A program made the position numbers and the translations under genes. The notes beneath the pieces are model-generated. The model was not told where the DNA came from and searched no databases. It worked only from the letters and a program-made list of their open reading frames with translations. Positions 770-23,444 of a stretch of DNA of 30,384 nt are shown here, in pieces; positions within the stretch are counted from its first letter, which is position 1; each line of letters starts with the position of its first letter. Source of the stretch: a virus; IMG/VR virus record IMGVR_UViG_3300036791_000669, positions 1 to 30,384 of that record; one strand, written 5' to 3'.

Positions 770-2018
770 CCCCATTCCGATCAAAGGCAATGACTAGCTC
801 AGCCTCGGAGCGGACATTTGCATTAGCTCCGCTCGGGACTCCCTTGGTCCCTACCGGTCGAATCGCGACCAATCGAAAGCCAAGCCCAAGAATGACGTCA
901 CAATGCCAAGCGGCAACGTCTTGCCAAGCTCCATCCCGAATATGATCCTTGATATTGAGGATGAATCGACCGTTACCCTTGAGGACTCGGAGAGCTTCGA
1001 TCCAAGCCTTAGCATGAAAAGCCCGGTACTCATCTCCCCAAGCCAGGACGGCAGAGCTTCCCTCGCTCGGGGCTCGACCGAGGTCGAAGTGATATGAATG
1101 CCGCCGGTCCGGATCGCTTGCCTCATATGAATCGGCAAGCCGGTTGCCGTAAGTCGGAGAGGTTGCGATTGCATCGAAGGTCCCTTTACGGAAGCCGGTC
1201 TTGAGCGCGTCCCCGACCTTGGTCCGATCATTGAGCTTTGCCCATTCGGGCTCAAGCTCGACCCCGGCAGTATCGTAACCGTACTCGGTCAGATAATGAA
1301 TCCTGCCGGTCCCGGCAAAGGGATCGAGGACCTTGGTTGACTTTTGATCCGCAAAGCGGGCATCGAGTAGCTCTTTGATTACTCGGAGGACCGCCATGCT
1401 AAAGGGAGCCGGATGCTTGACCTCTCCGGGGCTGACGCCAACCGGGACCGTAGTTACCTTGTATTCATCGACAACCTCCCGGACTTGCCTCGCGGTTGGT
1501 TGTATCCCTCCGGCTTCCTCGACCGACTTATTCCAAGCCGCAAGCAAAGCGTCAGGGTCATCCTTGAGCGGCATTAGCTCTCGGACTTGAGCCTCCCGTC
1601 TTGGCTTAATGCCAACATTTGTTGGCAAAGCGGCGGTTACGTCGGTCGCGTTGATGAGTTGCCGTCCCCGCTCTCGGGAGATATCCCATCGACGTTGACA
1701 GTAATCCTCAAAGGTCTTGTATCCCTCCCCGTCGATGCCGTCAAGGGCTCGATAGCTCTTGCCGTCCCGGATTCTCATGAGAGCCCAACCGACTTCGATA
1801 AAGGTCGAGAGCCCATCCTCAATGACCTTTTCATCATCCCGGAGCCGTCCAAGCAAAGTCTTACGCTCTGCCTCCGTTAGCTCGGGCTCCGCGGGCTCGA
1901 CAACCTCGACCGTTACCGGCTCAGCCGGGACGTCGGTTGCTTGGGCTTTCCGCTCTGACTCAAAGAGGTCCCCATCTCCGGAGACTTCATCCGTTGTTAC
2001 CGTCTTGCCTCTCGGCAT
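756..2018 (-). CDS. DNA methyltransferase (N4-cytosine/N6-adenine class) with ParB-like N-terminal region
   Basis: This 420-residue protein has two parts. Residues 50-190 carry an FIEVGWALMRIRD ... YCQRRWDISRERGRQLI stretch followed by QPTARQVREVVDEY, which resembles helical DNA-binding regions in phage ParB-like proteins. Residues 205-420 form an AdoMet methyltransferase: motif I is DPFAGTGRI (232-240), an acidic residue follows in GVELEPEW, and motif IV is TSPTYGNR (286-293). Amino-methyltransferases of this class normally read S/D-P-P-Y; the second proline is Thr here. No restriction enzyme is adjacent, so an orphan enzyme that protects phage DNA is the likely role. The start at 2018 has an AGGAGG site 7 bases upstream. 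Residues 131-138 (LPTNVGIK) are encoded by a copy of the 16-bp dyad found elsewhere in the window. Confidence 0.8.
   Translation of the reverse strand: MPRGKTVTTDEVSGDGDLFESERKAQATDVPAEPVTVEVVEPAEPELTEAERKTLLGRLRDDEKVIEDGLSTFIEVGWALMRIRDGKSYRALDGIDGEGYKTFEDYCQRRWDISRERGRQLINATDVTAALPTNVGIKPRREAQVRELMPLKDDPDALLAAWNKSVEEAGGIQPTARQVREVVDEYKVTTVPVGVSPGEVKHPAPFSMAVLRVIKELLDARFADQKSTKVLDPFAGTGRIHYLTEYGYDTAGVELEPEWAKLNDRTKVGDALKTGFRKGTFDAIATSPTYGNRLADSYEASDPDRRHSYHFDLGRAPSEGSSAVLAWGDEYRAFHAKAWIEALRVLKGNGRFILNIKDHIRDGAWQDVAAWHCDVILGLGFRLVAIRPVGTKGVPSGANANVRSEAELVIAFDRNGDAGD
1611..1626. promoter_or_regulatory. 16-bp dyad, copy 1 (inside methyltransferase gene)
   Basis: GCCAACATTTGTTGGC: two 7-bp arms around TT, extendable to 8-bp arms. 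It lies in coding sequence and encodes LPTNVGI. It is one of four identical or reverse-complement copies; see the copies at 5953, 12980 and 23016. A regulator-binding site is inferred from repetition and symmetry. Confidence 0.55.
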
Positions 2019-2070
2019 ATTGTCATCCTCCTAGCTCTGACATTCTTAGAAACTGCCTCCTACCTGCCCT

Positions 2071-2219
2071 TTAACCTCAAGGACTTCAAGGACCTCAAGG
2101 TTTGGAAGTATGGAAATGTTGATGAGGTTGAGGTCCTTACCTCTGCCTCAAGGACTTCAATAACCTCGGATTTTCCATACTTCCTGAGGTTGAGGTCCTT
2201 GAGGTCCTTGGGTCCTTAA
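2071..2219. repeat. Nested inverted and direct repeats between ATPase and methyltransferase genes (candidate origin)
   Basis: The gap 2019-2215 is filled by an imperfect palindrome centred near 2144. The inner arms are exact: GGAAGTATGGAAA at 2104-2116 and its complement at 2172-2184. The outer arms, 2071-2100 and 2187-2219, are built from repeated TCAAGGAC / GTCCTTGA units. Two 15-bp direct repeats are perfect: CCTCAAGGACTTCAA at 2075 and 2146, and GAGGTTGAGGTCCTT at 2124 and 2186. Iterated short units beside a RepA-like ATPase and primase fit a replication origin with iterons; a strong RNA hairpin that tunes expression of the downstream methyltransferase is the alternative. Both readings are inference. 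Confidence 0.75.
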
Positions 2220-3760
2220 TCCGGACCTAAAGCGACGCGCCATCCCATAGTCCCGTCACTCATCCGCTCCCGCGTGGTTTTGATATCGAGCTTTGCTCGG
2301 GCTCGGTCAAACGTGCTATTCGATGCGATACCTCCCTTGACGATTGCTTCATGAAGCTCATTGCTCCAAAGCGGTCCTCCCTTCAAGACTTCCCTTATGG
2401 CATCAATGCATTGCGCGAGCTTCGACCGTTTATCCGCAAGCTCATCGGGGTCCCCCGCGGGACGGTCGCTCAAAAGCATCTCTGCCGTCATCCCCTCGAC
2501 CGGTCCGCGCCAATCGACGCGAGGGACGTCGAGCCCCTCGACCGGAATGAGCTTGAAGCCGATTGGTTGAGGGGTAACGGCAAGATTCATCTTGATTGCG
2601 GCAAGGACCCTCAAGCTTTCCTCTTCGGGATGCTGAGCGACCGTCCAACCGGCGCGAGCGGCTCCGACAATCCCTATCGAGCCTCCCCCGCGGTAAATAG
2701 CCTTGCCTCCCTCTTTGCGAAGATGGCGGAGCATGACGATTGTCGAGTTTGTGTCATTGGCAATGCCGCGCAAGGTATGGAGCGTCCTCCGGATATCAGA
2801 GTCTCGATAGTTGTCAACCTTGGCATCCAGGTACTCGCTCAATACGTCGATGACAACCAATCGAGCCCCGGTATCCCGGATGGCTCCCGCCAATAACGGG
2901 ACGTCCCGCGGGATGACAATGGGCATTGATTCCCCGTCATAGCGGGCATCTTGGACAAAGTAAATCTTGCTTTCGTCCGCTCCCGCGGCCATGAGCCGAG
3001 GCTTTATCGTATCGTCCGGGTCATCCTCTCCACTCAAGAGCAATACCGCGGAGGGAGGCAGGCTAGGGAGGTCCTGACCGGGCATCGGTTGACCGGTCGA
3101 GACTCTTGCCGCTATGTCATCCATCATTGTTGACTTACCGGTACCGGGGTCCCCGTCAAAGGTTATGAGCTTGCGAAGCGGAGCCCATCCCGGCCAAAGC
3201 CATTTAACTGTCACTCTCTGGACTCCCTCCATCCGTATAAGCGTTATTGACTCCGGCATGACCGGAAGCTCTCTGAGAACCTCCCTCGGGCTTGGACCGC
3301 TTGGCTTATAGAGCCGGTCGGTTATGCCGTCCTCGATTAACTCAAGCCTTGCCGCCGCGAAGTCCCCTCGATGCTTGAGCATTGCCCAAAAACCAAACTT
3401 GTCGTAAGGACGTCGAAGCTCAAAGCCAAGCTCCCGCGCCATTGTCTCTGACCAAACGGCAACATGGTCGTCCTCCAAATATCGAGTAACGCTTACGTCA
3501 TTCTCGCTATTCGGATAGTGATAATGCTCTTCGACTCCGACCGACCTCACTAGTTGGCAATGTGCCAAGCCGGACAGTATGAGCCCGAAGTCCGCTTGCT
3601 CATTGAAGCGGCTTCCGGCCAAATGAGAGTTATCCCGCCTAACGGCTTTGCTCCCGTTGAAGTTGACCGGCTCCGGGATAGGTCCGAGAGCATCGATCAA
3701 ATCCGAGGGGTCATACTCATTGCCATTCCATCGAGCCGTTACAAGAATGGGCTGATTCAT
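2216..3760 (-). CDS. RepA/KaiC-like replicative ATPase (RecA fold)
   Basis: This 514-residue protein has a Walker A motif GDPGTGKST at residues 203-211, a Walker B strand LVVIDVL at 301-307, and a later RHLRKEGGKAIYRGGGSIGI segment typical of RepA-like hexameric helicases or KaiC-like ATPases of phages and plasmids. The first 190 residues resemble the helical region that links primase and helicase domains. The last 70 residues, including LWSNELHEAIVKGGIASNSTFDRARAKL, look like a winged-helix DNA-binding tail. It overlaps the primase gene by ATGA, so the two products are made together and probably act as a primase-helicase pair at the phage origin. The repeat region directly downstream strengthens this view. 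Start chosen from the ATGA overlap. Confidence 0.85.
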   Translation of the reverse strand: MNQPILVTARWNGNEYDPSDLIDALGPIPEPVNFNGSKAVRRDNSHLAGSRFNEQADFGLILSGLAHCQLVRSVGVEEHYHYPNSENDVSVTRYLEDDHVAVWSETMARELGFELRRPYDKFGFWAMLKHRGDFAAARLELIEDGITDRLYKPSGPSPREVLRELPVMPESITLIRMEGVQRVTVKWLWPGWAPLRKLITFDGDPGTGKSTMMDDIAARVSTGQPMPGQDLPSLPPSAVLLLSGEDDPDDTIKPRLMAAGADESKIYFVQDARYDGESMPIVIPRDVPLLAGAIRDTGARLVVIDVLSEYLDAKVDNYRDSDIRRTLHTLRGIANDTNSTIVMLRHLRKEGGKAIYRGGGSIGIVGAARAGWTVAQHPEEESLRVLAAIKMNLAVTPQPIGFKLIPVEGLDVPRVDWRGPVEGMTAEMLLSDRPAGDPDELADKRSKLAQCIDAIREVLKGGPLWSNELHEAIVKGGIASNSTFDRARAKLDIKTTRERMSDGTMGWRVALGPD

Positions 3761-4341
3761 TGCGTCCCCTTGAAGTTATGAGTACCGGGAAGCCGGAGGA
3801 TTCTCGGCATATCCCAAACGTCATCGATATGAATGCCTGCCGCAATCCCTCGATTAAGCCAAGCAAGCCGCCAATGAGCCAGTAGCGGCAAGGCATCTTC
3901 GGCATCGACCATCTCCCTAAACCGCCACCATGATTGAAAGCCGTGACCGGAGCGGACTATTGCGGTCGGTCGCTCCGAGTATCCCTCGATGAAGAGCCGC
4001 GCTTGATCGTATGAGGTCGCTAATCCGCTGAGCCGATGACCGGGACCGGCAACATCGACGTCGAGCCATAAACCGGGAATGGCAAGGCAATCCTCGATCC
4101 CTCCCCGACGTCCCTCCGGCAATATCTCTCGACGCGTCGCGCAACCAAACCAAACGTCCCCGCTCAAGCCAAGGTCCCATATCGATTGAGCCAAGCTCGG
4201 GATATCCGTTGCCGGAGCCCAAGCGGTCCGACGTTTGCGGCTCTGAGCCTCGATAGAGAACAGGCTGACGTAACCGACCTCGGCATAAATGAAGAGCATC
4301 GAGAGAAACTCGATTGCTCGATTGACGTCGGGCTCGGTCAT
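3757..4341 (-). CDS. Archaeo-eukaryotic-type primase (Prim-Pol, N-terminal-domain only)
   Basis: At 194 residues this is the size of a lone primase-polymerase catalytic domain. The metal-binding motif is LWLDVDV (Asp 94 and Asp 96), followed by SGHGFQSWWRF (131-141) and the basic RLPGTHNFK motif (183-191). These are the three diagnostic motifs of the bifunctional primase/polymerase family. The protein would make primers, perhaps with limited DNA polymerase activity, for the ATPase encoded next. The start overlaps the SSB-like gene stop as TAATG and the end overlaps the ATPase gene. No DnaG-type zinc domain or PriCT extension is present; the helicase part is a separate gene here, unlike fused forms in many phages. 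Confidence 0.85.
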   Translation of the reverse strand: MTEPDVNRAIEFLSMLFIYAEVGYVSLFSIEAQSRKRRTAWAPATDIPSLAQSIWDLGLSGDVWFGCATRREILPEGRRGGIEDCLAIPGLWLDVDVAGPGHRLSGLATSYDQARLFIEGYSERPTAIVRSGHGFQSWWRFREMVDAEDALPLLAHWRLAWLNRGIAAGIHIDDVWDMPRILRLPGTHNFKGTQ

Positions 4342-4886
4342 TACCGGCCAAAGAGGTCCTCAGCATCCTCATCCTGATAAGCGGGAGCCGGAGGGGCTTG
4401 AGGTACCGGAGCCGGATAGGAAGCCGCTACGGGGACCGGCTGAGGTCGAGGGGCTTGGACCGGAGCGGGAGCTTGAGCGGGAGCCGGTTGAGGTCGAGGG
4501 GGAGCCGGAGCAACCGGGACCGGCGCGGGAGCCGCTTGAGGCTGAGCCGCTCTAGTCACTTGGACGTCAAACTCTTTGAATGTCCCGTTAGCGGTCGCTT
4601 TGTTGTCGAGCAAGACGATTGTCATATCGTCCCCGACCTCGGGACGCTTTTCCAAGAGTTGCCGCCAAAGGTCCTTGGCTCCGGTCGGACCGGAGAGCAT
4701 GGTTTTTTGTACCCCCGTATCAAAGTCCCAAAGCCAATACTTAACCGCCAATCCATGCCGAGTTGTTAGCTCTTCAATCCTCATGACCTTGGCAAAGATG
4801 CGGTCATTCCGATTATGAAACTTGACGTCATCCGGGAAATCATCTTGCTCCGGGAGTTGCATCCGGGGGTCATCATAAATAGACAT
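4341..4886 (-). CDS. SSB-like single-strand DNA-binding protein with Pro/Ala-rich linker and acidic tail
   Basis: Residues 20-112 carry alternating beta-type segments (FAKVMRIEELTTRHGLAVKYWLWDF, MTIVLLDN, FKEFDVQVTRAA) consistent with an OB-like fold. Residues 113-168 are almost only Pro, Ala, Gln and Val, and the end is the acidic DEDAEDLFGR. That layout, a globular domain, a disordered linker and an acidic tip, is the one used by bacterial SSBs to dock partners, but the sequence is not clearly SSB and the tip ends in GR rather than in a Phe. Position between the exonuclease and primase genes supports the role. An AGGAGG site lies just before ATG 4886. Confidence 0.65.
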   Translation of the reverse strand: MSIYDDPRMQLPEQDDFPDDVKFHNRNDRIFAKVMRIEELTTRHGLAVKYWLWDFDTGVQKTMLSGPTGAKDLWRQLLEKRPEVGDDMTIVLLDNKATANGTFKEFDVQVTRAAQPQAAPAPVPVAPAPPRPQPAPAQAPAPVQAPRPQPVPVAASYPAPVPQAPPAPAYQDEDAEDLFGR

Positions 4887-4898
4887 TGATCCTCCTAG

Positions 4899-5918
4899 CT
4901 ATGGCATCGGCCGCGATGGGGTCCGGCCCTTTATTCTCGCTGACGTTTCCTCGGTTATTTGGTATCGAGCCATAAACCCAAGGACCCTATCGACGTCATC
5001 AACGGTCATGGTCTTGATATTGGTTGTGATACCGGCGGCATCGACCTCCGTCATAAGCTCAAGCCTTTGGTCAGTGTCGAGCAACTCCAATCGGGCTCGG
5101 AGATGAGCAAGCTCCGCATTGGTCGGGACTTGATTAAAGGGAGTCTCCCCCTCGCGTTGGAAGGTATAGGGGTCGCCAATCTTGGGACCCTCTTCCTCCC
5201 ATCGACGTATCTCAAGGCAGGCAAGGAAAGCCCGCCGATAGATTTTGTCCATTGGAACCGGTCGAGCATGGTAACCGTCTTGCTGTAAATGAACTATCAA
5301 GCAAGTGTCCGGCGGTTGCCATTCAACCTCTTTGTCATTCGCGTCAAGGGTATATTCAAAGTTAAGGGCATATCCCCCGACTACTTGAACCGCCATATCG
5401 TCATAAACTCCGGCGGAGGTTTTCCAATCGAGCAATACTCGACCCATCTCCGGCGCGTTTTTGAAGCGGCATAGGAGGTCGAAGGTCCCTGCCGTAGCGG
5501 TCTTTTCCGAGTACCCCGTTACCTCCGACCCTAATGATTGCGGCTGAGCGTCAGCCAGGAAGCGGCGGAGGGAATGAATCCAAGGCTCAATGATGGCTTC
5601 GACCGGATAGTCCCTGCCTTGCAAAATGTTGTCAGCAACGGCATGGATGGTTGTCCCCTTGGCTCCGGCTCGGTCGCGAGTAGTCCAAGGGGTCTTTTTC
5701 AAGAGGTCGTATTGATCCTCGGGCGGGAGCTTCGACCATGCCTCGATATGTTGGACGGCATAGCGGGCAACGCTATTTGCCGCCCAATACAAGAGAGCGG
5801 GCTTAGGAAGCGCGCCGGTTGCGGTCGTAACGCTCCGATACCAGTAAGACCGGTCATGCCGGTCCGGATGCCAATACCTCCGAGTACCGTTTAGCTCAAC
5901 GGCATATTTGGGAGCCAT
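4899..5918 (-). CDS. Cas4/RecB-like PD-(D/E)XK exonuclease
   Basis: The 339-residue protein shows GTTIHAVAD (His 92), AGTFDLLC (Asp 147), VLLDWKTS (Asp 164, Lys 166) and a following Gln in MAVQVVGGYA (Gln 178). That series of motifs defines the RecB/Cas4 branch of PD-(D/E)XK nucleases. No cysteine cluster for an iron-sulfur site is visible, so it is closer to the simple phage exonucleases than to Cas4. In this operon it would supply single-stranded ends for recombination or degrade host DNA. The start at 5918 follows an AGGAGG site. The only intergenic gap upstream holds a copy of the 16-bp dyad, so its expression may be controlled separately from the genes before it. Confidence 0.8.
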   Translation of the reverse strand: MAPKYAVELNGTRRYWHPDRHDRSYWYRSVTTATGALPKPALLYWAANSVARYAVQHIEAWSKLPPEDQYDLLKKTPWTTRDRAGAKGTTIHAVADNILQGRDYPVEAIIEPWIHSLRRFLADAQPQSLGSEVTGYSEKTATAGTFDLLCRFKNAPEMGRVLLDWKTSAGVYDDMAVQVVGGYALNFEYTLDANDKEVEWQPPDTCLIVHLQQDGYHARPVPMDKIYRRAFLACLEIRRWEEEGPKIGDPYTFQREGETPFNQVPTNAELAHLRARLELLDTDQRLELMTEVDAAGITTNIKTMTVDDVDRVLGFMARYQITEETSARIKGRTPSRPMP

Positions 5919-5952
5919 AAGTCCTCCTAGTCTCTTGGTCCCGTTTGGTTAT

Positions 5953-5968
5953 GCCAACAAATGTTGGC
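5953..5968. promoter_or_regulatory. 16-bp dyad, copy 2 (upstream of exonuclease gene)
   Basis: GCCAACAAATGTTGGC lies in the 52-base gap between the zinc-protein gene and the exonuclease start, about 35 bases before the ATG. It is exactly the reverse complement of the copy at 1611. The position fits an operator or a stoperator-like transcription block. Confidence 0.55.
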
Positions 5969-5970
5969 TT

Positions 5971-6258
5971 TTAGTGCGGATACCTCCGTTGATGATGACC
6001 GGGAGCCCAACGCGACGGAACCCCGTTATGGGAGCCGACCGTTGTCCCGCATCCGCACTCACAAAGGACCGGATCGCTCTCCCGCCGGTCGGATTCATCC
6101 AAAGTGATTATGTACGCGTTGCCTCGGATTAAGCCCGCTTCCAATCGCTCCGCGACCCAAACCCTCTCGGGGTCCCCGCAAAAGGCAATGACTGTAAGCC
6201 TCTTATAGCCCCGTTTGATGACGGTCCCTAGCTCGATACCGTCAGCGTCAATGGTCAT
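5971..6258 (-). CDS. Small protein with C-terminal Cys/His zinc motif
   Basis: The 95-residue product has a beta-rich first half (ELGTVIKRGYKRLTVIAFCG, ERVWVAERL) and ends CECGCGTTVGSHNG ... RWAPGHHQRRYPH. The C-x-C-x-C plus downstream GHH pattern is often found as a zinc knuckle in phage proteins, alone or attached to HNH nucleases; no HNH active site is present here. The start overlaps the nuclease stop by 11 bases and the likely Shine-Dalgarno sequence (GGGAG) sits very close to the ATG. A DNA-binding role in the early operon is possible but not shown. Confidence 0.6.
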   Translation of the reverse strand: MTIDADGIELGTVIKRGYKRLTVIAFCGDPERVWVAERLEAGLIRGNAYIITLDESDRRESDPVLCECGCGTTVGSHNGVPSRWAPGHHQRRYPH

Positions 6259-6598: not shown

Positions 6599-6660
6599 CG
6601 GACGCGTTTGCCTCCCCGTCAATCGAAGTGCATCAACTTGCGGTCAGCCGAAGTGCTAAG

Positions 6661-6689
6661 TTGCGGGCTCTGTAAGAGAGAGCTAGAAC
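6661..6689 (+). promoter_or_regulatory. Candidate repressor promoter
   Basis: TTGCGG at 6661-6666 and TAGAAC at 6684-6689 are separated by 17 bases, matching a sigma-70-type promoter at 4 of 6 bases each. The two hexamers are bounded exactly by AGTGCTAAG on the left and its near-inverse CTCAGCACT on the right, which would suit autoregulation by the repressor. Modest match, so moderate confidence. Confidence 0.4.
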
Positions 6690-6796
6690 CTCAGCACTCG
6701 GTAAAGGGAAGTCTTAGCACCATGCAAGCGAGCCCGCAAGAGGAAGTTTGAAGAGGTCGCGAGGGGGAATGCTTGGAGGGGTCGAGCTACCCCGTA

Positions 6797-6810
6797 GGGA
6801 GAACAGGGAT
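6797..6810 (+). repeat. Start-associated motif, copy before repressor gene
   Basis: GGGAGAACAGGGAT ends 7 bases before the repressor ATG. Related copies stand before the integrase (9316-9328), the 120-residue gene (10381-10392) and the zinc-ribbon gene (12674-12684). AGGGA probably works as the ribosome binding site, but conservation extends beyond it. Confidence 0.6.
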
Positions 6811-6817
6811 AACAAAC

Positions 6818-7192
6818 ATGAGTGAGCTTGGGACCGTTTTAGTCAGTCTCAGGAAACGCGCCGGACTTTCACAGTCTGAGCTAGCGCGTCGTACCAAGCT
6901 AAGCGGCGGATACATCTCTCAGCTAGAAACGGGAGTGAGGGGAGAGCGCGTCCCTCTCGCGACCCTTGGCCGGATCGCGAAAGCTCTCGGGGTCGATAGA
7001 AAAGTCCTTTTAGACGCGGCGGATATTGTCCTCAATAACAACCATCATTCTGTCGAGCGATTGCCGATTGAAGAGTTTATTGAGACTGAGCCGACGCTCA
7101 ATGCCTCCGAGAAAGCCTTTCTTTTACAACTAATAGGCTACTTCCGGGCTACGTCAAATCGAGCGTTGCCGCCAGAGTTGCTAACAGGCTGA
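6818..7192 (+). CDS. XRE-family transcriptional regulator, probable phage repressor
   Basis: The 124-residue protein opens with a classic Cro/CI-type helix-turn-helix: LVSLRKRAGLSQSELARRTKLSGGYISQLETGVRG, then LATLGRIAKALGVDRKVLL. The C-terminal 50 residues (SVERLPIEEFIETEPTLNASEKAFLLQLIGYFRA) have no Ser-Lys peptidase motif, so a RecA-driven self-cleaving repressor is unlikely. The start at 6818 matches the natural start of such domains; an upstream in-frame start at 6773 would add 15 residues across the control region. It is the only rightward gene in the window. Its codon use differs: Gln is written CAG where neighbours use CAA. Its 3' end overlaps the convergent gene by 44 bases. Confidence 0.85.
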   Translation: MSELGTVLVSLRKRAGLSQSELARRTKLSGGYISQLETGVRGERVPLATLGRIAKALGVDRKVLLDAADIVLNNNHHSVERLPIEEFIETEPTLNASEKAFLLQLIGYFRATSNRALPPELLTG

Positions 7193-7400: not shown

Positions 7401-7465
7401 CCGATCCCCCTTAAGCCTTTGGGCTCCGCCCGTATGAGCCGGACACTAGCACCGGTCGCGGTCAT
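7397..7465 (-). CDS. Possible 22-residue coupling ORF
   Basis: An ATG at 7465 overlaps the stop of the upstream 58-residue gene (ATGA), and after 22 codons its TGA overlaps the ATGATG start of the downstream membrane-protein gene. It would let ribosomes pass through the 61-base gap between them. The peptide (MTATGASVRLIRAEPKG...) shows no features. It may be chance. Confidence 0.25.
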   Translation of the reverse strand: MTATGASVRLIRAEPKGLRGIG

Positions 7466-7879: not shown

Positions 7880-9313
7880 TTAAGCCTTGAATCGAAACTT
7901 GAGCCGGTCAGCACTAAAGCGCTTGCCGGGAGCGCTCTCGACCTCGACCCTATCGAGGACGTATGAGAGAGCTTCCCTCCGCTCTTCCGGGGTCATATCC
8001 GGCCAATACTGCCGGAGCGCTCCGGGCTTGCCAAGCCAAGCAAAGGCTTGCGGAGGGAGAGCTTTAGGGGTCGATTCCCGGACCGCGGCTTGAGCATCCT
8101 TGAGCGCTTGCCGGTACTCGGGAATCAAATCAAGGTAGTCCTCAAGGTCAAGCTCCCCGGACTCCCGTCGAGCTTTGATGAGGTCGAGAGCGGCTTGAGC
8201 TTCCTCGACGGCTGACGTATCGACCGGCTTCGCGTTGCCGCTTGGCTTGATAAATGCCGTCCTATCGGTCCGGTCGAGGACGGCAAGCTCAACGGCTTCC
8301 TCAAGCTTGAGAGCATCGACGGAGCCTCCCGGCTTGGCTTCATAAATCCGCCGGTATGCGCCATCGGGCTCCCGAGTCCCGTTAGTAGCGCGACCGCCGC
8401 GCATCCGGTAAAGCTTGCCGTCTTTGCGGGCATAAGCGAAGTCCGTTAGGAGGGAGCGGACCGGAGCCCGATGCTTACGGCTCGGATCGGAGAGGATGGC
8501 TTGCACTCGATCCCAAAGCTCTCGATCAATGATCGGAGCCCAAACGGCTCGACCAATGACCTCCCCTTGATGCTGACGCAAGCCCGCAATCCGGGGAGAG
8601 GTCAAGAGTTGCCCAATGGTGGCAAACGTCCAAGCGTTGCCGCGCGGGCTCTTGAGGGTTGTCTCTCGCTCAAGGTCCCGGAGAGACTTCCCGGCAATGA
8701 GCCCCTCAGCCCAAGCCCGAATAACGGCTTGCTCAGTAGGACGGGGCTTGATGCCGTCAGCCTCAAAGCCGAAAGGTCGAGCCCCTCCGGCAAACTTCCC
8801 ATCTTCGGCAAGCTCAAGCATCTTTGATTGCAACCTCTCGCTCTTAATCTCGGACTCAAGCGCGCTCATGACTCCGAACATGCGCGTTTTAGCGCGGTCC
8901 CCGGCATTGCTGACGTCGAGCCGTCCTCCGTAGAGAGTCTCGACGTTGACCCCCGTTGTCTCGATGAAGTCGCAAACGGGGATCAAGTCTGCCCAATGTC
9001 GCCAAAGCCTCGACGGCTCCCGGCTCATGATGTTCCGCGCCGCTCCGGATTGAATATCCCTTTGCGTTGCCTCCCAAGCCGGACGCGGGCTCGGGACCTT
9101 GGAATAAGTCCCGTCCGCATTACGGACCCTCTTCCATGCGGAAGTGTTGTTATCGATATGGACCGCGTGAACGCGACCCCCGCGACCTTCGATCTTCGCG
9201 GTTGCCTCGCGGACTTGCCGCTTGACCCCTAGCTCATCATTGCCGGGGTCATCGGAGATGCGAGCATAGATATCCCAAAGCTCGACCTCTTCGACTATTA
9301 GCGCTTGACTCAT
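7880..9313 (-). CDS. int: Large serine recombinase (phage integrase)
   Basis: The 477-residue protein starts with the resolvase catalytic domain: WDIYARISDDP places the nucleophile at Ser 20 with Arg 18. The conserved catalytic-domain end appears as GRLDVSNAGDRAKTRMFGVMSALESEIKSERLQ (130-162), and GKFAGGARPFGF opens the recombinase domain. Residues 365-410 form the helical coiled-coil region. In this family a zinc ribbon with four cysteines normally lies around residues 290-335; here that stretch reads FAYARKDGKLYR ... YRRIYEAKPGGSVDALKLEEAV and has no cysteine, and the whole protein has one (Cys 114). The fold may be kept without zinc. ATG 9313 follows a start-associated motif. It would integrate and, with a directionality factor, excise the phage. 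Confidence 0.92.
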   Translation of the reverse strand: MSQALIVEEVELWDIYARISDDPGNDELGVKRQVREATAKIEGRGGRVHAVHIDNNTSAWKRVRNADGTYSKVPSPRPAWEATQRDIQSGAARNIMSREPSRLWRHWADLIPVCDFIETTGVNVETLYGGRLDVSNAGDRAKTRMFGVMSALESEIKSERLQSKMLELAEDGKFAGGARPFGFEADGIKPRPTEQAVIRAWAEGLIAGKSLRDLERETTLKSPRGNAWTFATIGQLLTSPRIAGLRQHQGEVIGRAVWAPIIDRELWDRVQAILSDPSRKHRAPVRSLLTDFAYARKDGKLYRMRGGRATNGTREPDGAYRRIYEAKPGGSVDALKLEEAVELAVLDRTDRTAFIKPSGNAKPVDTSAVEEAQAALDLIKARRESGELDLEDYLDLIPEYRQALKDAQAAVRESTPKALPPQAFAWLGKPGALRQYWPDMTPEERREALSYVLDRVEVESAPGKRFSADRLKFRFKA

Positions 9314-9315
9314 CT

Positions 9316-9328
9316 TCCCTGTTCTCCC
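9316..9328 (-). repeat. Start-associated motif, copy before integrase gene
   Basis: On the minus strand this reads GGGAGAACAGGGA and ends two bases before the integrase ATG. Here GGGAG, not AGGGA, is at the right distance to be the ribosome binding site. Confidence 0.6.
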
Positions 9329-9419: not shown

Positions 9420-9437
9420 TAGGAAGGGAGCGAGAGC

Positions 9438-9845: not shown

Positions 9846-10012
9846 GACTCCGGAAGGGCTTGCATGACGTCAACGTCCATCGAGTCCCCATAGCTCCGAA
9901 GCCATTGGACTACCTCCGCTCTCGATGCGAGTCCGGGCTCCCCGTAGTAAAGCCGGATGGCGCGCCGGTAGTCGTCATCGACCTCGACGGTATAGCTGAC
10001 TCGGACCTTCAT
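9842..10012 (-). CDS. Small protein of 56 residues, unknown function
   Basis: The protein begins MKVRVSYTVEVDDDYRRAIR and continues LYYGEPGLASRAEVVQWLRSYG before ending DVMQALPES. The order strand, two helices with a conserved-looking Trp, resembles small ribbon-helix-type proteins, but I cannot assign it. Both ends are coupled: TAATG at the start with the 120-residue gene and ATGA at the end with the Cys-rich gene. That tight packing is the main evidence that it is real. Confidence 0.65.
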   Translation of the reverse strand: MKVRVSYTVEVDDDYRRAIRLYYGEPGLASRAEVVQWLRSYGDSMDVDVMQALPES

Positions 10013-10374
10013 TAGAACCGCTCAAATCCGAAGGACTTGACTCCGTAGCGACCATCCTCATCATCGGGGCTCCCAAGCCTCCGGAGCATGACGATATCCC
10101 CGGTCGATAGGGAGCGATTGCCTTTCTCCCGATACCGTTGCACTCGATCAAAGTAAGCCTCTTCGCAATGAAGCTCTCCCGGAGAGCTATTGCAAACGGC
10201 AAAGACAACCTCCGCCGCTTCAAGATGCGAGTCGGCAAGGACGTCGAAGGTAAAGCCGTCCCCGTCATACACTCCATCCGCCGCGGCTTTCTCAAAGCCG
10301 TCATCCTTGATGAAGAAACAAGTCCGGCGGAAGTCCATCGAAAGATGGACCGTTGCCTTATAGAGCTTTCTCAT
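10012..10374 (-). CDS. Conserved-type small phage protein, unknown function
   Basis: The 120 residues start MRKLYKATVHLSMDFRRTCFFIKDDG, have a middle segment FTFDVLADSHLEAAEVVFAVCNSSP and end in SLSTGDIVMLRRLG ... GYGVKSFGFERF-like residues. The pattern of strand, helix, strand and a final SLSTGD turn looks like a complete small alpha/beta domain of a kind seen in actinobacterial mobile elements, but I do not know a function. The start at 10374 is preceded by the GGAGAACAGGGA motif six bases away, so it is probably the first gene of a translational block that includes the next two genes. Confidence 0.65.
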   Translation of the reverse strand: MRKLYKATVHLSMDFRRTCFFIKDDGFEKAAADGVYDGDGFTFDVLADSHLEAAEVVFAVCNSSPGELHCEEAYFDRVQRYREKGNRSLSTGDIVMLRRLGSPDDEDGRYGVKSFGFERF

Positions 10375-11226: not shown

Positions 11227-11418
11227 TCAATGATCCTCATAAAGCCAAACTAAACGCTCCCGGTCGCTGACCTCGATCTTGCCGACTTTCCGCCAACCGG
11301 AATCGCTATTGACAAAGACAAGCTCATACGGGAGCCGGTCAACTCCAATCTCTCGATCCCGCTTCGCTCCCCGTTGCACCATTGCCTTTACAAAGTCCCC
11401 GACCGTTTGCTTGCTCAT
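11227..11418 (-). CDS. Small protein of 63 residues, unknown function
   Basis: The protein runs MSKQTVGDFVKAMVQRGAKRDREIGVD, then LPYELVFVNSDSGWRKVGKIEVSDRERLVWLYED. A helix followed by four short strands is the likely layout. The ATG at 11418 overlaps the ParB-like stop as ATGA. I do not recognise the family. Its coupling to the ParB-like gene suggests they are made together. Confidence 0.6.
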   Translation of the reverse strand: MSKQTVGDFVKAMVQRGAKRDREIGVDRLPYELVFVNSDSGWRKVGKIEVSDRERLVWLYEDH

Positions 11419-12296
11419 ACCGGCTCCGGCCAAGTCTCGCGGGTTGTCCCGGTATACATATAGCTAAGGACTTTGATCGAGCGACCGTCCCTCCAACTAT
11501 TCCAAGCTTTGATTGCGGACGCGACCCATCGGAAATCCGGATTGCGGACTCGACCTCGACCCCGGATTATTTCCCCTTGAGAATAGTTGCGGAGAGCCAA
11601 GATGGCGGAGCCGCTCGGGAGGTCCTCCCCGGTCTTGAGCTTTTCCCAAAAAACTTCATTCTCCCCGGCATCGACAAGCGAGAGCCGATACCAAACGGCA
11701 AGGGATGGTCCCGGTCGAAGCTTGAGAGCCCGCATGGCCGGACCGACGCCAGTAATCCCGTCCCGAAGTCCTTGGTTGTCATCGAAGAGCCGCAATAGCT
11801 GAGGGATCGAGGGACGTCGAGCGTTGTCGGCATAATGCGGGCTCCCGGTTGTCTCGGCATAAATGATCCGGGCATACCAAGCGATTCCGGCTCCGAGTCT
11901 ATGGACGTCAACCTCTCCCCGGAGCTTGAGCGCGTCCCCAAGCCTCCGGCTCAGAGTGTCATCCATGACGTCTTGATTCTCCCTCGGGACATTGCGAAGG
12001 ACCAAGACCTCAATCGGCATCTCCGCCAATGCCGCCGCGGCTAATCGATGCTGACCATTGAGCAAGACTCCATCGAGGTCGAAAACCAAGGCATCCCCGG
12101 TTAGCTTCCATTCATTCCGCTTGAGTATCTCGACCAAATGAATAACGCGGGACTCCCGGAGGTCCCGGTTGCGGACGTTTGTCTCTTCAAGGATTTTCTC
12201 GGCTCTCTGAGGACTTATGACCTCAATCCGGGATGACGGCTTGATTACCTGCCCATTGAGGCTCAGCCGCTCGGTCTTGGTTGCTTTAGTTGTCAT
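11415..12296 (-). CDS. ParB/sulfiredoxin-fold (ParB-like nuclease domain) protein
   Basis: The 293-residue protein contains VIHLVEILKRNEWKLTGDALVFDLDGVLLNGQHRLAAAALAEMPIEVLVLRNV (about 51-104). The NGQHRL box after a D-G turn is the signature of the ParB/Srx fold, as in phage proteins called ParB-like nuclease domain proteins. The remaining 190 residues are helical with no known motif, and there is no clear helix-turn-helix like that of true ParB partition proteins, and no ParA in the window. A CTP-dependent, DNA-modifying or regulatory role is possible; partition is unlikely. ATGA overlaps at both ends show it is embedded in the accessory operon. Confidence 0.75.
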   Translation of the reverse strand: MTTKATKTERLSLNGQVIKPSSRIEVISPQRAEKILEETNVRNRDLRESRVIHLVEILKRNEWKLTGDALVFDLDGVLLNGQHRLAAAALAEMPIEVLVLRNVPRENQDVMDDTLSRRLGDALKLRGEVDVHRLGAGIAWYARIIYAETTGSPHYADNARRPSIPQLLRLFDDNQGLRDGITGVGPAMRALKLRPGPSLAVWYRLSLVDAGENEVFWEKLKTGEDLPSGSAILALRNYSQGEIIRGRGRVRNPDFRWVASAIKAWNSWRDGRSIKVLSYMYTGTTRETWPEPV

Positions 12297-12652
12297 GCTG
12301 AGGCTTCCTCCATATCTCCGATTGCATCGACCTTCGCCAATCTGGCGCGGATGCGATTGAACATGGTTAGCCTCAACTCTTCCCGAGTCGGCTTTTCATC
12401 CCGCTCAACCTGATACCCCTCGACATAGATATACCGTCGCATGGATACTTGCCCGATTGAATCGATGACGTCATGCCGCTCGGTTGTGCAACGCGTACAA
12501 CGTAGCGATAACCGCCATCCATAGGCGGGAGTCTCAAGGTCATCGGGATAAAACTCATCCCAAGAATGACCATAGACCCGGCATCGAAGCATTGATTGAT
12601 CGAGCCCGGTCGTATCCCCTCCGCGGATGGAGGTCCCTTTTCTAGCTGGCAT
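12293..12652 (-). CDS. Zinc-ribbon protein, first gene of accessory operon
   Basis: The 119-residue protein contains MLRCRVYGHSWDEF and, 25 residues on, LSLRCTRCTTERHDVIDSIGQV ... RRYIYVEGYQ. Cys 24 with the CxxC pair and nearby His residues make a probable zinc ribbon. This arrangement is common in small actinobacterial phage and plasmid proteins. The ATG at 12652 follows an in-frame stop closely, so the start is secure. The start-associated motif lies 21 bases upstream, further than in the other cases, and a candidate promoter lies about 70 to 95 bases upstream. A regulatory role would fit its position, but nothing proves it. Confidence 0.7.
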   Translation of the reverse strand: MPARKGTSIRGGDTTGLDQSMLRCRVYGHSWDEFYPDDLETPAYGWRLSLRCTRCTTERHDVIDSIGQVSMRRYIYVEGYQVERDEKPTREELRLTMFNRIRARLAKVDAIGDMEEASA

Positions 12653-12966: not shown

Positions 12967-12979
12967 AGACTCGCGCAAT

Positions 12980-12995
12980 GCCAACAAATGTTGGC
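12980..12995. promoter_or_regulatory. 16-bp dyad, copy 3 (after lysis genes)
   Basis: GCCAACAAATGTTGGC, with flanks that extend each arm to 10 bp (12977-12998). It sits seven bases beyond the holin-like stop codon. With the copy at 23016 it shares the longest symmetric form. Confidence 0.6.
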
Positions 12996-13001
12996 ATTTC
13001 C

Positions 13002-13183: not shown

Positions 13184-13984
13184 TCAGGTAACCGGAGCCG
13201 TCCAACTAGCGGACCAAGTATCGGGACCAACCAAGCCGTCCGCGGCAAGCCCTTTCTCGGATTGGAAGCTCCGACATACGTCCTCGGACTGAGGACCAAA
13301 TACGGAGTCAACTCCAATCGACCAACCCCTAGCGCTCATTTGAGCTTGCCAAACTCCGACGTCGGGATGGGTCGAGTTATGATCGATGCCGAAGTAATCA
13401 ACATGCAATGGCGGAGCCGGTCCGGCGGGAGCGCTCGGGGTCGGAGGACTCGGAGCGATTGGAGCCCCGCCGGTTGCCATCGAAAGGACCTTATCGATTG
13501 GGAAGTTACCGGTCCCAAAGTCGCAATCAACATGACCCCCTCCCCCGGAGCCGAGGTCGATATGTTGGCAAACCCCTCGACCTCCCCCTTGAGCTTGGGA
13601 AGCCGAGAGCTTGACTAGCGGAATACCAAGCGCGGCGGATTCCTCCGCAAGCCAAGCGGCAGTATTGGCAAGCATATTGCCATGCTCATTCTCCCATTGA
13701 GCCCGAGTCCACTCCGCAAAGCCGCATAGCTCGATAGCTACTGCCGCATCGTTATAGTTCGCTTGGGTCCAAGCCTTATTAGGTCTTTGAACGTAAATCC
13801 CGACCGTATTTACCTTGTCATCGGCTCCGGCATGAGAGCTAACTTCATTCGCACTATTAGCGAAAAAGTTTCCCAAGCTCTCAATAGTCCTAGCCCCCTC
13901 TGCCGTATGGAGGACCAAAATCCTCGCGGAGCCGCTCCGGCTTGAATAGTTGGGGGAGGGCATAGACACTCGGATAAGGCTCAT
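13184..13984 (-). CDS. Endolysin: N-acetylmuramoyl-L-alanine amidase with peptidoglycan-binding domain
   Basis: Residues 1-165 form an Amidase_2/PGRP-type domain: ILVLHTAEG gives the first zinc-binding His, SSHAGAD follows, and the late QHIDLGSGGGGHVDCD supplies the second His and Cys ligands. After a Pro/Ala linker (APSPPTPSAPAGPAPP) the last 70 residues, with VGVWQAQMSARGWSIGVDSVFG and LAADGLVGPDTWSASW, form a peptidoglycan-binding domain of the PG_binding_1 type. It would cut the amide bond between muramic acid and the stem peptide at lysis. No signal peptide is present, so it depends on a holin. No lipid esterase (LysB) is seen in the window. The start overlaps the previous gene as ATGA. 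Confidence 0.9.
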   Translation of the reverse strand: MSLIRVSMPSPNYSSRSGSARILVLHTAEGARTIESLGNFFANSANEVSSHAGADDKVNTVGIYVQRPNKAWTQANYNDAAVAIELCGFAEWTRAQWENEHGNMLANTAAWLAEESAALGIPLVKLSASQAQGGGRGVCQHIDLGSGGGGHVDCDFGTGNFPIDKVLSMATGGAPIAPSPPTPSAPAGPAPPLHVDYFGIDHNSTHPDVGVWQAQMSARGWSIGVDSVFGPQSEDVCRSFQSEKGLAADGLVGPDTWSASWTAPVT

Positions 13985-14172
13985 CGCTCTCCCTCATAAC
14001 CAATCTCATCCTCGACGCGCTCCCAAAACCGCTCTCTAAACGGTCCGGGCTCATCATCGGGAATCCGCTCCGGATGGGACGGCTCCCGGTCGAGCTTGCG
14101 AGGTCCCGGCCAATCGACGTCATTGACAAAGCGCTCCGGCGGTATCTCCGGCTCCCTCTCTCGCTTAGGCAT
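13981..14172 (-). CDS. Small charged, proline-rich protein
   Basis: This 63-residue frame, MPKREREPEIPPERFVNDVDWPGPRKLDREPSHPERIPDD ... ERFWERVEDEIGYEGER, is built almost only from charged residues and proline, so it is probably disordered. The ATG at 14172 was preferred to an upstream in-frame start at 14244 because the latter would cover the 27-residue gene. It ends ATGA into the endolysin. Function unknown. Confidence 0.5.
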   Translation of the reverse strand: MPKREREPEIPPERFVNDVDWPGPRKLDREPSHPERIPDDEPGPFRERFWERVEDEIGYEGER

Positions 14173-14248
14173 TATCGGGCTCTTCGGGCTCGGGAGTCTC
14201 GGGCTCTTCCGGCTCCGGTACTGGCTCGGGCTCAGGAGTTGCACTCAT
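14165..14248 (-). CDS. Tiny Pro-Glu repeat peptide of 27 residues
   Basis: MSATPEPEPVPEPEEPETPE is followed by PEEPDNA and a stop. AAAGGA lies 9 bases before ATG 14248, a good ribosome binding site, and nothing else starts here. PE-rich repeats are rigid and extended; such peptides are sometimes linkers or virion-associated. It overlaps the next gene by eight bases. It could also simply be a translated leader. Confidence 0.45.
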   Translation of the reverse strand: MSATPEPEPVPEPEEPETPEPEEPDNA

Positions 14249-15630: not shown

Positions 15631-15634
15631 GGTC

Positions 15635-18087: not shown

Positions 18088-18089
18088 CC

Positions 18090-21023: not shown

Positions 21024-21336
21024 TTGTTACCCCCTCTCCCTTGAGAAATGCTCCAAGTTGTCCCCATCCCATTTGAGTACCGGGAGGCTTAGGTTTGGAC
21101 TTGCCCGGTCGAGGTAAAGGCTTTGGTTGCTGAGCCTTGGAGCCCGCAACCTTCATGACAACCCAAGTCAAGGCATCGACGGCATCATTAAGTCGAGCCA
21201 GTAAATGAGCCTCATTCGACCAAGAGGCTTCCTCTACTCGGGTCAACGCTCCCGGAGGCAAGCGCCGCGCCAGTACATGAATCTTCCGAAGCGATACCGA
21301 GGGGTCGAGGGTATCGATCCCGTATACCGCCATCAT
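21013..21336 (-). CDS. Tail assembly chaperone, frameshifted (T) part
   Basis: The 107-residue frame starting MMAVYGIDTLDPSVSLRKIHVLARRLPPGAL continues to a basic, Pro-rich end. In tail phages this part is normally made only as a -1 fusion to the preceding G protein. Consistent with that, the frame is open upstream of the ATG, and the extra residues GFIAAARARFDPDIEAA join well onto it. A separate product starting at 21336 has no ribosome binding site. The protein would guide tape-measure folding and tail tube assembly. Confidence 0.7.
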   Translation of the reverse strand: MMAVYGIDTLDPSVSLRKIHVLARRLPPGALTRVEEASWSNEAHLLARLNDAVDALTWVVMKVAGSKAQQPKPLPRPGKSKPKPPGTQMGWGQLGAFLKGEGVTNGR

Positions 21337-21344
21337 GGCGGCTT

Positions 21345-21698
21345 CTATGTCGGGGTCGAAGCGGGCTCTTGCCGCGGCAATAAATCCGGCATCCCTCCCC
21401 CGAGTTGCCGCTTGCTCATCTCTTCAATGAGTACCGACATAGCATCGAGGGGGATGGTTGCAATAAAGCGGTCCCATTGCTCTTCCCCGACAATCTGCCG
21501 GAGAACAATGATGACCTCTCCCGGATCAATGTCCTCGGTCTTGGCTCCCGCATAAGCGGCAAAGGTCGCGGAAACGCTCAACGGCCAAAGCCCCATAGGG
21601 GGAAGCGAAAAATGCTCTTCCCCCCAATCAAACTCAAAGGGCTCGCGTTGAGTTTCCGATTGAGCCGCTTTGGTAGCGGCTTCAAGGTCAAATGCCAT
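21345..21698 (-). CDS. Tail assembly chaperone (G part)
   Basis: This 117-residue protein lies between major tail protein and tape measure genes, the fixed place of the first tail chaperone. It reads MAFDLEAATKAAQSETQREPFEFDWGEEHFSLPPMGLWPLSV, then helical AYAGAKTEDIDPGEVIIVLRQIVGEEQWDRF. That pattern, a short beta start and a helical acidic body, is typical. The end SKRQLGGGMPDLLPRQEPASTPT would be replaced by the T part after frameshifting. The start codon lacks a strong site; it lies four bases after the major tail stop. Confidence 0.75.
   Translation of the reverse strand: MAFDLEAATKAAQSETQREPFEFDWGEEHFSLPPMGLWPLSVSATFAAYAGAKTEDIDPGEVIIVLRQIVGEEQWDRFIATIPLDAMSVLIEEMSKRQLGGGMPDLLPRQEPASTPT
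21394..21402 (-). other. Probable -1 programmed frameshift site
   Basis: On the minus strand CTC GGG GGA GGG (G frame) is the only run of identical bases in the overlap of the two frames. The -1 frame is open from upstream of it to the T stop, and gives a chaperone-like junction GGRDAGFIAAARARFDPD. It is not a canonical X-XXY-YYZ heptamer, so the exact slip position is inferred. Confidence 0.5.
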
Positions 21699-21701
21699 TG
21701 A

Positions 21702-22334
21702 CTAAGCCGCCGCGTCAGCCGCTTGCCGGGACCTCGCACTAAGCGGAGGGGGAGCAACCTCGGGACCGCTCATCAAATGGGCTAGGACCCCGTTGTCATC
21801 CATCGCGCCTAGCGTTACTTCCCATCCGATAGCGGAGCCGCGGGCAAATACAACGTCCCCGGTATCGGAGAGTTGGGCTCGACCAAAGACAATCCGGGTC
21901 ACAACTCCGGCATCCCGGATATCGAGCCCGATAGCGTAAAGCTGACCTCCGACGTCGGAGCGGATATCAAAGGCAACCATCCCCGCCGCGTCCGGAACCG
22001 GGGGAGGCATATCGAAGTACATTGCCAGAGTGTCGGGATTGGTTTGCCACATGATGAAGTGAGCCGTCAACTCCTTCCCGGTAATCATGGTCTTGACCGG
22101 GGAGGTTGATTGCCAAGGGGTCAGAGTGTCGCTAGTGGTCGAAGAGCTAACGGTTACTCCGTCACCGGAGATATAACCAATGGGCTCCCATGCCGCATCC
22201 CAATCGGTTACAAGGTCCGCGGGGGGAGGGGTCCCCGCCGGAGCCCGATAAACTCCCGGACCGTTATTGATGCCAAGCAAGATTTCCGCGGGGTCGAGCC
22301 CGGTAGGTCCGGCTTGAGGTTCCGTTACCGTCAT
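21702..22334 (-). CDS. Major tail (tube) protein
   Basis: This 210-residue product has the beta-sandwich layout of tube proteins: IGYISGDGVTVSSSTTSDTLTPWQSTSPVKTMITGKELTAHFIMWQTNPDTLAMYFD. The combination of 'DGVTVS...' near residue 58, a long loop, and a following strand-helix with TNPDTLAMYF is characteristic of actinophage major tail proteins. The tail end APPPLSARSRQAADAAA is flexible. It should form hexameric rings stacked along the tape measure. It overlaps the terminator gene as ATGA. Confidence 0.85.
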   Translation of the reverse strand: MTVTEPQAGPTGLDPAEILLGINNGPGVYRAPAGTPPPADLVTDWDAAWEPIGYISGDGVTVSSSTTSDTLTPWQSTSPVKTMITGKELTAHFIMWQTNPDTLAMYFDMPPPVPDAAGMVAFDIRSDVGGQLYAIGLDIRDAGVVTRIVFGRAQLSDTGDVVFARGSAIGWEVTLGAMDDNGVLAHLMSGPEVAPPPLSARSRQAADAAA

Positions 22335-22705
22335 TTGCTTTCCTTTCTAGTGTTGCCAGTGTTAGAGAGGATGGGATGGACCCTAAAGTCAATCCTCATT
22401 ACATATCTAGGCGCGCCGTCATTTGCATCGGGAAGCCAAAAGGGTCCCTCTGTGATTTGCGCGTATGTGATTTGACCATCCGGCCAAGCGACCTCGGGGA
22501 GCTTCATTAGCTCAAGCCGGACTTGCTCCGCTTCATCCGCGGTTGCTTTCTTTCGGGCTCCGCGGACGTCAACTTGAATGCCCCAATACCATTGATAGCC
22601 TCCGACCTCTTCAAAGGACGTATAGCTAAAGGACGTAACCCCCTTATGATGCTTGAGGTTTTCCCATACCCAAGCCTCAAGGTCCGGCTGACTAACGGCA
22701 ATCAT
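22331..22705 (-). CDS. Tail terminator / tail-completion protein
   Basis: The 124 residues begin MIAVSQPDLEAWVWENLKHHKGVTSFSYTS, contain YQWYWGIQVDVRGARKKATADEAEQVRLELMKLP and end MRIDFRVHPILSN. A helix followed by long paired strands around a helix is the fold of terminators that cap the tail tube and join it to the neck. The position between the gp10-like gene and major tail gene is standard. ATGA overlaps on both sides fix the limits. Confidence 0.7.
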   Translation of the reverse strand: MIAVSQPDLEAWVWENLKHHKGVTSFSYTSFEEVGGYQWYWGIQVDVRGARKKATADEAEQVRLELMKLPEVAWPDGQITYAQITEGPFWLPDANDGAPRYVMRIDFRVHPILSNTGNTRKESK

Positions 22706-23001
22706 CTCGATACCCTCGCTCGATATTGAGAGATGACGCGACCAAAGACCGGCCTAGCTGGCATAAAGCGAGTCCCATACTCGACATATTTGCCATACGG
22801 GACCTCATTTAAGACTCGGTAGACTCCCGGCTTTATCCGCTCGATTCGCCAACCTCCCCCGAGATTGCCGGTCCTCCCTCGGACCTCTTGAGCCGCGACC
22901 CCGGAGCGGATTGCCTCAGCAATGCCCCGGACAATCCCATCCGTAGCAAGCTTCGGAGCTTGCCGGTTGAGGACTTGATAGGTCGAGGCTTGCCCGCTCA
23001 T
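22702..23001 (-). CDS. HK97 gp10-like head-tail connector
   Basis: The 99-residue protein has QEVRGRTGNLGGGWRIERIKPGVYRVLNEVPYGKYVEYGTRFMPARPVFGRVI. The G-R-TGNL ... YGKYVEYGT ... PARP series is diagnostic for the HK97-gp10-like family, which acts at the neck during head-tail joining. ATG 23001 overlaps the previous stop as TGATG and is preceded by AGGGGG. The upstream gap region holds a copy of the 16-bp dyad, 15 bases from this start. Confidence 0.85.
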   Translation of the reverse strand: MSGQASTYQVLNRQAPKLATDGIVRGIAEAIRSGVAAQEVRGRTGNLGGGWRIERIKPGVYRVLNEVPYGKYVEYGTRFMPARPVFGRVISQYRARVSR

Positions 23002-23444
23002 CAAAGCCCCCTAATGCCAACATTTGTTGGCATTCTCGGCTGAGGTAGCTCGACTCCCGGCCAAGTGTCGAAGGACGTTGCATTAGCGCTCCAAACGTCG
23101 AGGGGAGCCGTCCCGTCCCCGGTACCGGTTGGGTCGCCAATGAAGCGGCATTGAGTCAAGTAGTAATAGCGGTCCCTAATCTCGGCAACCGACCCCTCGA
23201 TGAGTTGCATCTCAACCGGGAGGAAGAGCGTCCCGGTACGGTCCCTTGCCGGTCCGAAGGGTCCTCGACCTCCCCCGTCAGCCGCTCGGACGTCAGCAAT
23301 GCCCGGATACTGTTGAAGGTTCCCTAAGCCGTCCCAATAGGGCTCAGAGCCCGGTAACCGCCATCCATGCTCATCTAGGTCCTCGGAGGGAGGGAAGAGC
23401 CTTACGGGGTCCGGAGCTACCAAGGGAGCCATGCATCCCGCCAT
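23001..23444 (-). CDS. Head-tail stopper protein
   Basis: The 147-residue protein includes MAPLVAPDPVRLFPPSEDLDEHGWRLPG, then TGTLFLPVEMQLIEGSVAEIRDRYYYLTQCRFIGDP and a tail ending MPTNVGIRGL. Size, beta content and position (third after the capsid gene) fit the stopper that plugs the neck. ATG 23444 has GAGGT six bases before it; ATG 23432 is an alternative start. The frame stays open to 23684, but that would cover most of the adaptor gene. The last seven residues come from the 16-bp dyad and may not be structurally needed. Confidence 0.65.
   Translation of the reverse strand: MAGCMAPLVAPDPVRLFPPSEDLDEHGWRLPGSEPYWDGLGNLQQYPGIADVRAADGGGRGPFGPARDRTGTLFLPVEMQLIEGSVAEIRDRYYYLTQCRFIGDPTGTGDGTAPLDVWSANATSFDTWPGVELPQPRMPTNVGIRGL
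23016..23031. promoter_or_regulatory. 16-bp dyad, copy 4 (end of stopper gene)
   Basis: GCCAACATTTGTTGGC with flanks extending the arms to 10 bp (23013-23034). On the minus strand it encodes MPTNVGI near the end of the stopper protein, in the same reading frame as in the methyltransferase gene copy, with 21 bases identical. Confidence 0.6.

Follow-up and report, generated by a model that had tools for sequence, protein, structure and literature searches.

The 30,384-bp viral record IMGVR_UViG_3300036791_000669 of IMG/VR (herein referred to as the window, that is, the whole stretch of DNA that was analyzed, and as G000 where it is numbered among its relatives) contains four copies of a single perfect 16-bp dyad, and three collinear sister phages contain dyads of the same build, each phage with a word of its own and partly at the same places in the genome. 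We propose that the four dyads are probably the operators, few and dispersed, of one two-fold symmetric, phage-encoded regulator, whose specificity would have drifted between heteroimmune sisters. As judged from sequence comparison, the site changes in the three sisters strongly support a reading of the dyads as a matched set bound by one regulator. The repeats are real, look functional and belong to a known general kind of system; what is unusual is that a small operator set has been rewritten between 97%-identical phages with the reading helix of the obvious repressor unchanged.

A repeated dyad with a different word in each sister phage

A search of the window with the pattern GCCAACANNTGTTGGC recovers exact copies of GCCAACA-WW-TGTTGGC at 1611, 5953, 12980 and 23016 (sites A, B, C and D2, respectively; table 1), and no further copy appears in the window when up to three mismatches are allowed. 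Among all words of at least 12 bases counted in the window, this is the only one to occur four times; likewise, no single perfect dyad (arms of 7, spacer of 0–8) exceeded one copy in 60 first-order Markov simulations, compared with four copies in the window. The arms extend to 10 bp at 12977–12998 and 23013–23034, to 8 bp at 1610–1627 and to 7 bp at 5953–5968, and two sites have AA as their central dinucleotide and two have TT. The dyads at 1611 and 23016 are intragenic, have 21 identical bases in common and encode PTNVGI in the same frame (the methyltransferase gene context of dyad A is ...AALPTNVGIKPRR..., and the C-terminus encoded by gene 23001–23684 is ...RMPTNVGIRGL, followed by the stop codon). 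The dyads at 5953 and 12980 are intergenic, the former 35 bp upstream of where the exonuclease gene starts (5918) and the latter just past the stop codon that ends a short gene for a predicted membrane protein (holin-like by eye), which lies 3' of the lysin gene. Both the early (replication) and the late (structural) parts of the genome hold copies. The initial annotation of this DNA, made from the sequence alone, had reported the four exact copies, their recurrence beyond chance, the 10-bp arms of two of them, the shared genic peptide and the two intergenic placements, and each of these statements holds on recomputation, the last of them by the gene positions.

The sisters were found by a portal search and comprise G001 (IMGVR_UViG_3300036846_000870, 33,267 bp; 76–78% DNA identity to the window over most aligned stretches), G002 (3300036846_000530, 34,500 bp) and G003 (3300036832_000727, 27,325 bp). 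The annotation had suggested looking for the word in related phages: it is absent from all three (a lone G001 match with two mismatches is not at a dyad position), and each has its own repeated dyad instead. In G001 this is GCTCCA-WW-TGGAGC, present five times (4962, 7492, 18822, 26291 and 30606), with arms that reach the full TGGCTCCA at 4962 and 30606 and that are one or two outer bases off in one arm at the other three. G002 carries TGTCTCCC-AA-GGGAGACA four times (7800, 18666, 27888 and 32259), and the partial record of G003 carries TGTTGCCC-TT-GGGCAACA twice (8971 and 20163).

The sister arms (TGGCTCC, TGTCTCC and TGTTGCC) share with those of the window the frame TG-N6-WW-N6'-CA, set in A/T-rich flanks. 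Matches to a strict template of this frame (an AT-flanked perfect N6 dyad) are confined to the window and G001–G003; they are absent both from the other related loci in a scan of 1.37 Mb (with overlaps) and from unrelated viral loci amounting to 1.02 Mb. No analogous dyads stand out in the G+C-rich relatives G005, G006, G007, G008, G012, G016 and G018; the GGGCCA dyads of G006, the sole G+C-rich relative simulated, reach four copies, as do one quarter of 40 simulations. Nor do phages with relatives of the window's XRE-family protein (L225–L231) have comparable repeated dyads. Separately, an unrelated contig (L120, IMGVR_UViG_3300003617_000658) contains TGCCAACA-(AG/CT)-TGTTGGCA at 291, 1103, 1610 and 3334, which is the same half-site word around another center; one copy has a shorter arm, and most copies lie a short distance 5' of a start codon.

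The words differ from phage to phage and the places are partly the same, which strongly supports the annotation's proposal that a sequence-specific regulator acts at dispersed sites. When the two whole genomes are aligned by MAFFT, the window dyads at 1611, 5953 and 12980 are column-exact with the G001 dyads at 30605, 26290 and 18821, and three coincidences within 25 columns did not arise in any of 20,000 random placements; separate alignments agree for site A (including G002) and for site C. Site A is codon-exact in the window, G001 and G002 (dyad at 32259), and the peptide at these codons differs among the three phages (PTNVG, APNGA and SPKGD), which shows that the protein can be made to change by a site that lies within its coding sequence. 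G002 also has its own dyad at 27888, upstream of the gene cluster equivalent to that of site B. The arms differ between the window and G001, whereas the central dinucleotide is the same site by site (AA at A, TT at B and C); because its orientation is kept at each site, the arms appear to have changed in place and not by copying, and copy-and-paste homogenization is disfavored at A, B and C for the same reason. On the alignment evidence, then, sites A, B and C descend in place with rewritten arms. Site D2 falls in an 18-column gap of the G001 alignment, which suggests that it was gained or lost as a dyad-only unit. Other sites have moved: G002 and G003 have a dyad within the beginning of their counterpart of gene 13981–14244 and a dyad 8 bp upstream of the −35 element of the capsid promoter, and G001 has one downstream of that promoter, adjoining the capsid ribosome site.

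G002 and G003 are about 97% identical (96–99% in four long collinear blocks), and against this background the word has switched completely. At both sites common to the two, TGTCTCCC arms have given way to TGTTGCCC arms in both halves, a symmetric change of two bases per arm and four in total per dyad. Drift alone is, on the sequences compared, a very unlikely cause of a symmetric switch at two sites, whereas a reader that demands one word would produce it at both sites at once. The pair bears on the question of how a repressor and its many operators can change together without a loss of immunity. Two candidates for the cause of the switch were rejected: the protein encoded by 11415–12296 is 98.6% identical in G002 and G003, and ribbon-helix-helix-like proteins (recognized by eye) are nearly identical in the two. 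The latter are two small proteins encoded at about 4728–5151 of G003 (L209) and at the equivalent place in G002; no counterpart was seen in the window.

Proposed action and candidate readers of the sites

In the mechanism that we propose, a dimeric regulator would bind the dyads in the lysogen and keep the dormant phage silent by blocking transcription in several start regions or beyond them, as do the CIBs and stoperators considered below. Site B, before the exonuclease gene, would serve the early recombination genes, and site A, which lies in the same early run close to its end, the replication and methylase end; site C, at the end of the late run, would act at the lysis/late junction and D2, early in the late run, at the start of the late operon. 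Since sites lie within genes and after stop codons, control of initiation alone is ill-suited to them, and a roadblock formed by the bound dimer, like that proposed for stoperators, would fit all positions. The reader and all of its sites would change together in each sister, such that close relatives would be heteroimmune.

The only regulator recognized across the four phages by Pfam and PHROGs is the XRE-family protein, which has a profile match to the immunity repressor 8bny (E = 4e-9) and whose structure model resembles controller proteins, SinR, ClgR and Stl. By elimination, the chance that this protein is the reader is just under even, and another phage protein is nearly as likely.

Several observations weigh against the proposed operator set or against this reader. 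The predicted recognition helix of the XRE protein (residues 30–38), taken with its neighboring residues (SGGY[I/L]SQLETG), is near-invariant in all four phages and the sites differ, and no dyad is found in the XRE/early promoter region (6622–6818), even with three mismatches; for these two reasons, binding of the XRE protein to the dyads is possible but doubtful. The position of the dyad relative to the capsid promoter also varies, being upstream of the −35 element in G002 and G003 and downstream in G001, with no dyad there in the window. There are only four to five sites per genome, far below the numbers in L5 or phiC31, the reader may be host-encoded, and the window itself and G003 are incomplete records.

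The XRE/RusA intergenic region (6622–6818) has repeats of its own, namely inverted GAGCCCGCAA copies and several GTGCTNAG motifs, which are possibly promoters or operators of the XRE protein. About six amino-acid differences separate the XRE proteins of G002 and G003 in their aligned part, of which two (V22I and R27Q) lie within the helix-turn-helix (HTH). At residue 27, which sits at the turn leading into the recognition helix, G000–G003 have K, K, R and Q, and in the same order one base of the half-site reads G, G, G and A; in four sequences this covariation is a hint, and only a hint, in favor of the XRE protein. Tentatively, an operator set rewritten between 97%-identical phages, with the helix of the sole recognizable repressor kept, may point to a heteroimmunity system with a phage regulator of an unrecognized, non-classical kind or with a repressor that has changed its specificity through residues outside the classical contacts, such as residue 27.

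The proposed operators may also be real and be read by an unrecognized phage protein, either one from the early region (such as the N-terminal part of the methyltransferase) or one encoded on the missing ends of the records. This variant of the proposed operator set, which does not exclude the XRE protein from consideration, is a substantial possibility that still falls somewhat short of an even chance. It would account for half-sites that differ at up to five of eight bases under a near-invariant XRE helix and for an XRE promoter region that has its own repeated motifs and no dyad; G003, moreover, lacks the early region, so that a changed reader there would go unseen. There is also a precedent in phage SPbeta, where the repeated element SPBRE was known long before its reader MrpR (PMC10516654). 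On the other side, Pfam and PHROGs recognize no other DNA-binding regulator in G000–G002; the structure model of the methyltransferase, with a mean pLDDT of 46, is too poor to judge.

Explanations that dispense with a phage repressor fare less well. The dyads could function as RNA-level elements (terminators, antitermination signals or protein-binding stem-loops), given their perfect stem of 7–10 bp, their loop of 2–4 nt and the terminator-like score of the + strand at 5953, but this is improbable: two copies lie within coding sequence, the copies are identical within each genome with neither covariation nor G–U variants, the loop bases occur in both orientations relative to transcription, terminator-like sites are no commoner than in shuffled sequences and Rfam gives no match.

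Among the SopB centromere repeats of the N15/F type, those of N15 are a few palindromes dispersed through a temperate phage, and an outer TG...CA is found in many parS and sopC sites. The dyads described here are similarly few, dispersed, lineage-specific in sequence and bounded by TG...CA; nevertheless, it is very unlikely that they act in partition, as the centromere of a plasmid-like prophage: ParA (PF13614) and ParB_N (PF02195) were unmatched in G000–G003 (the window and G003 being incomplete) where positive controls were matched, and the serine recombinase suggests integration.

Binding by the host LexA or by another host regulator, which the annotation had raised because the AACA-N2-TGTT core resembles a Gram-positive LexA box, is highly improbable. 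This core is lost in all three sisters, the nearest of which has about 77% DNA identity and whose arms stand partly at the same positions; were the sites read by a conserved host factor, their sequence would stay constant, so the arm changes count against a host reader. A LexA (SOS) box of the CGAAC-N4-GTTCG type was also rejected, as the outer bases differ and the sequence is not kept in the sisters. Finally, the probability of a functionless repeat, due to chance or to codon usage, is negligible: the two genic copies do share a peptide, but the Markov simulations, the positional homology with changed sequence and the persistence of the site A dyad in codons whose residues differ all speak against it.

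Comparison with known dispersed repressor sites

The closest anatomical match to the dyads is provided by the CIBs of the Streptomyces phages phiC31 and phiBT1, which are bound by the c repressor; the site-specific integrase of both phages is of the serine type. We examined the CIBs in the genome records by the same dyad search as was applied to the window, which recovers TACTCACGTGAGTA in 15 perfect copies in phiC31 and 16 in phiBT1. As with the CIBs, the dyads of the window are a near-identical perfect palindrome dispersed in a temperate phage genome (that of an actinophage in the case of phiC31 and phiBT1), and the window, with its serine recombinase, likewise encodes a probable integrase. 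The window and its sisters differ in having four to five copies instead of 15–16, in lacking a dyad at the XRE gene where CIBs stand at or beside the repressor gene c (a difference that matters if the XRE protein is the reader) and in that each sister has its own word, whereas phiC31 and phiBT1 have one in common. No homologue of phiC31 c was detected in G000–G003 (tblastn, best E 0.18).

The annotation had also drawn a parallel with the stoperators of L5-type mycobacteriophages. In Cluster A phages (L5 and Bxb1), these are 13-bp, asymmetric sites in 20–30 copies that are oriented with transcription (PMC6550527, PMC9283540); their consensus differs between related heteroimmune phages and covaries with the repressor (PMC6550527), which reads them as a two-domain monomer (PMC9283540). 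The parallel stands in kind, inasmuch as the dyads are dispersed away from promoters, lie in and between genes and are lineage-specific, but the dyads do not belong to this class: they are 18-bp and symmetric, number four to five per genome, are identical within each genome (nearly so in G001) and have the central dinucleotide in both orientations, not following transcription.

A third system, the SPBRE of Bacillus phage SPbeta, is a repeated element bound by the master repressor MrpR, its reader having been found long after the sites (PMC10516654). SPBRE resembles the dyads in being spread through the (pro)phage genome and differs in that it is described in intergenic regions, whereas two of the window dyads are genic. 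No MrpR-like tyrosine-recombinase fold was found among the proteins scanned, the serine recombinase being the only recombinase. By analogy, SPbeta may serve as a precedent for a late-found, non-HTH reader of repeated elements.

Gene content and further features of the window

The window encodes a siphophage, with TerL (cut by the record end), portal, MuF-like protein, capsid, tape measure and lysin, together with a serine recombinase, an AAA ATPase, an exonuclease, a RusA-like resolvase, a methyltransferase and the XRE regulator (assigned by Pfam and PHROG); every assigned gene but that of the XRE protein is transcribed leftward (table 1). The presence of the serine recombinase supports a temperate, integrating life style. 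No close DNA-level relative was found among named or deposited phages. The portal has at best about 37% identity to actinobacteriophage portals, and the nearest genome match is a contig of a Streptosporangiales metagenome-assembled genome with a portal 63% identical, which together make an actinobacterial host likely.

Table 1. Positions of the dyads and of selected genes and signals in the window
Feature	Position	Strand	Remarks
Dyad A	1608–1629		In methyltransferase gene, encodes LPTNVGI; 18-bp core with arms TGCCAACA / TGTTGGCA, 1610–1627; exact match
Dyad B	5950–5971		Intergenic; about 23 bp upstream of the exonuclease AGGAGG ribosome site; exact match
Dyad C	12977–12998		10-bp arms; lies just past the stop codon ending the short gene after lysin; exact match
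Dyad D2	23013–23034		10-bp arms; encodes C-terminal PTNVGI of gene 23001–23684; exact match
DNA methyltransferase gene	756–2018	−	N6_N4_Mtase domain in C-terminal part; contains dyad A; aligned with sisters
Exonuclease gene, downstream of dyad B	4899–5918	−	PHROG 298 exonuclease
XRE-family HTH protein	6818–7192	+	Pfam HTH_31/HTH_3; PHROG repressors; sole assigned + strand gene
Large serine recombinase, probable integrase	7880–9313	−	Resolvase and Recombinase domains
Sigma-70-like promoter TTGATA-18-TATAGT	24938–24967	−	Upstream of capsid gene; no window dyad there

Three further features of the window were noted. At 24785–24967 (− strand), a promoter-like pair precedes the capsid gene, with a leader of about 150 nt in between; this leader contains two TGCGGCGCGATGCGG copies, is kept with TGCGGCGCGATGCGG in G001–G003 and has no match in Rfam. 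The 11-mer GAGAACAGGGA occurs at 6799, 9316, 10381 and 12674, each time directly 5' of a start codon (those of the XRE gene, the recombinase gene, 10012–10374 and 12293–12652), and also at the XRE genes of G001–G003; we take it to resemble the start-associated sequences of Cluster K mycobacteriophages. Lastly, the region between the methyltransferase and ATPase genes (2078–2210) contains a run of repeated AAGGACCTCAAGG-like units that form a 61-nt inverted repeat (77%).

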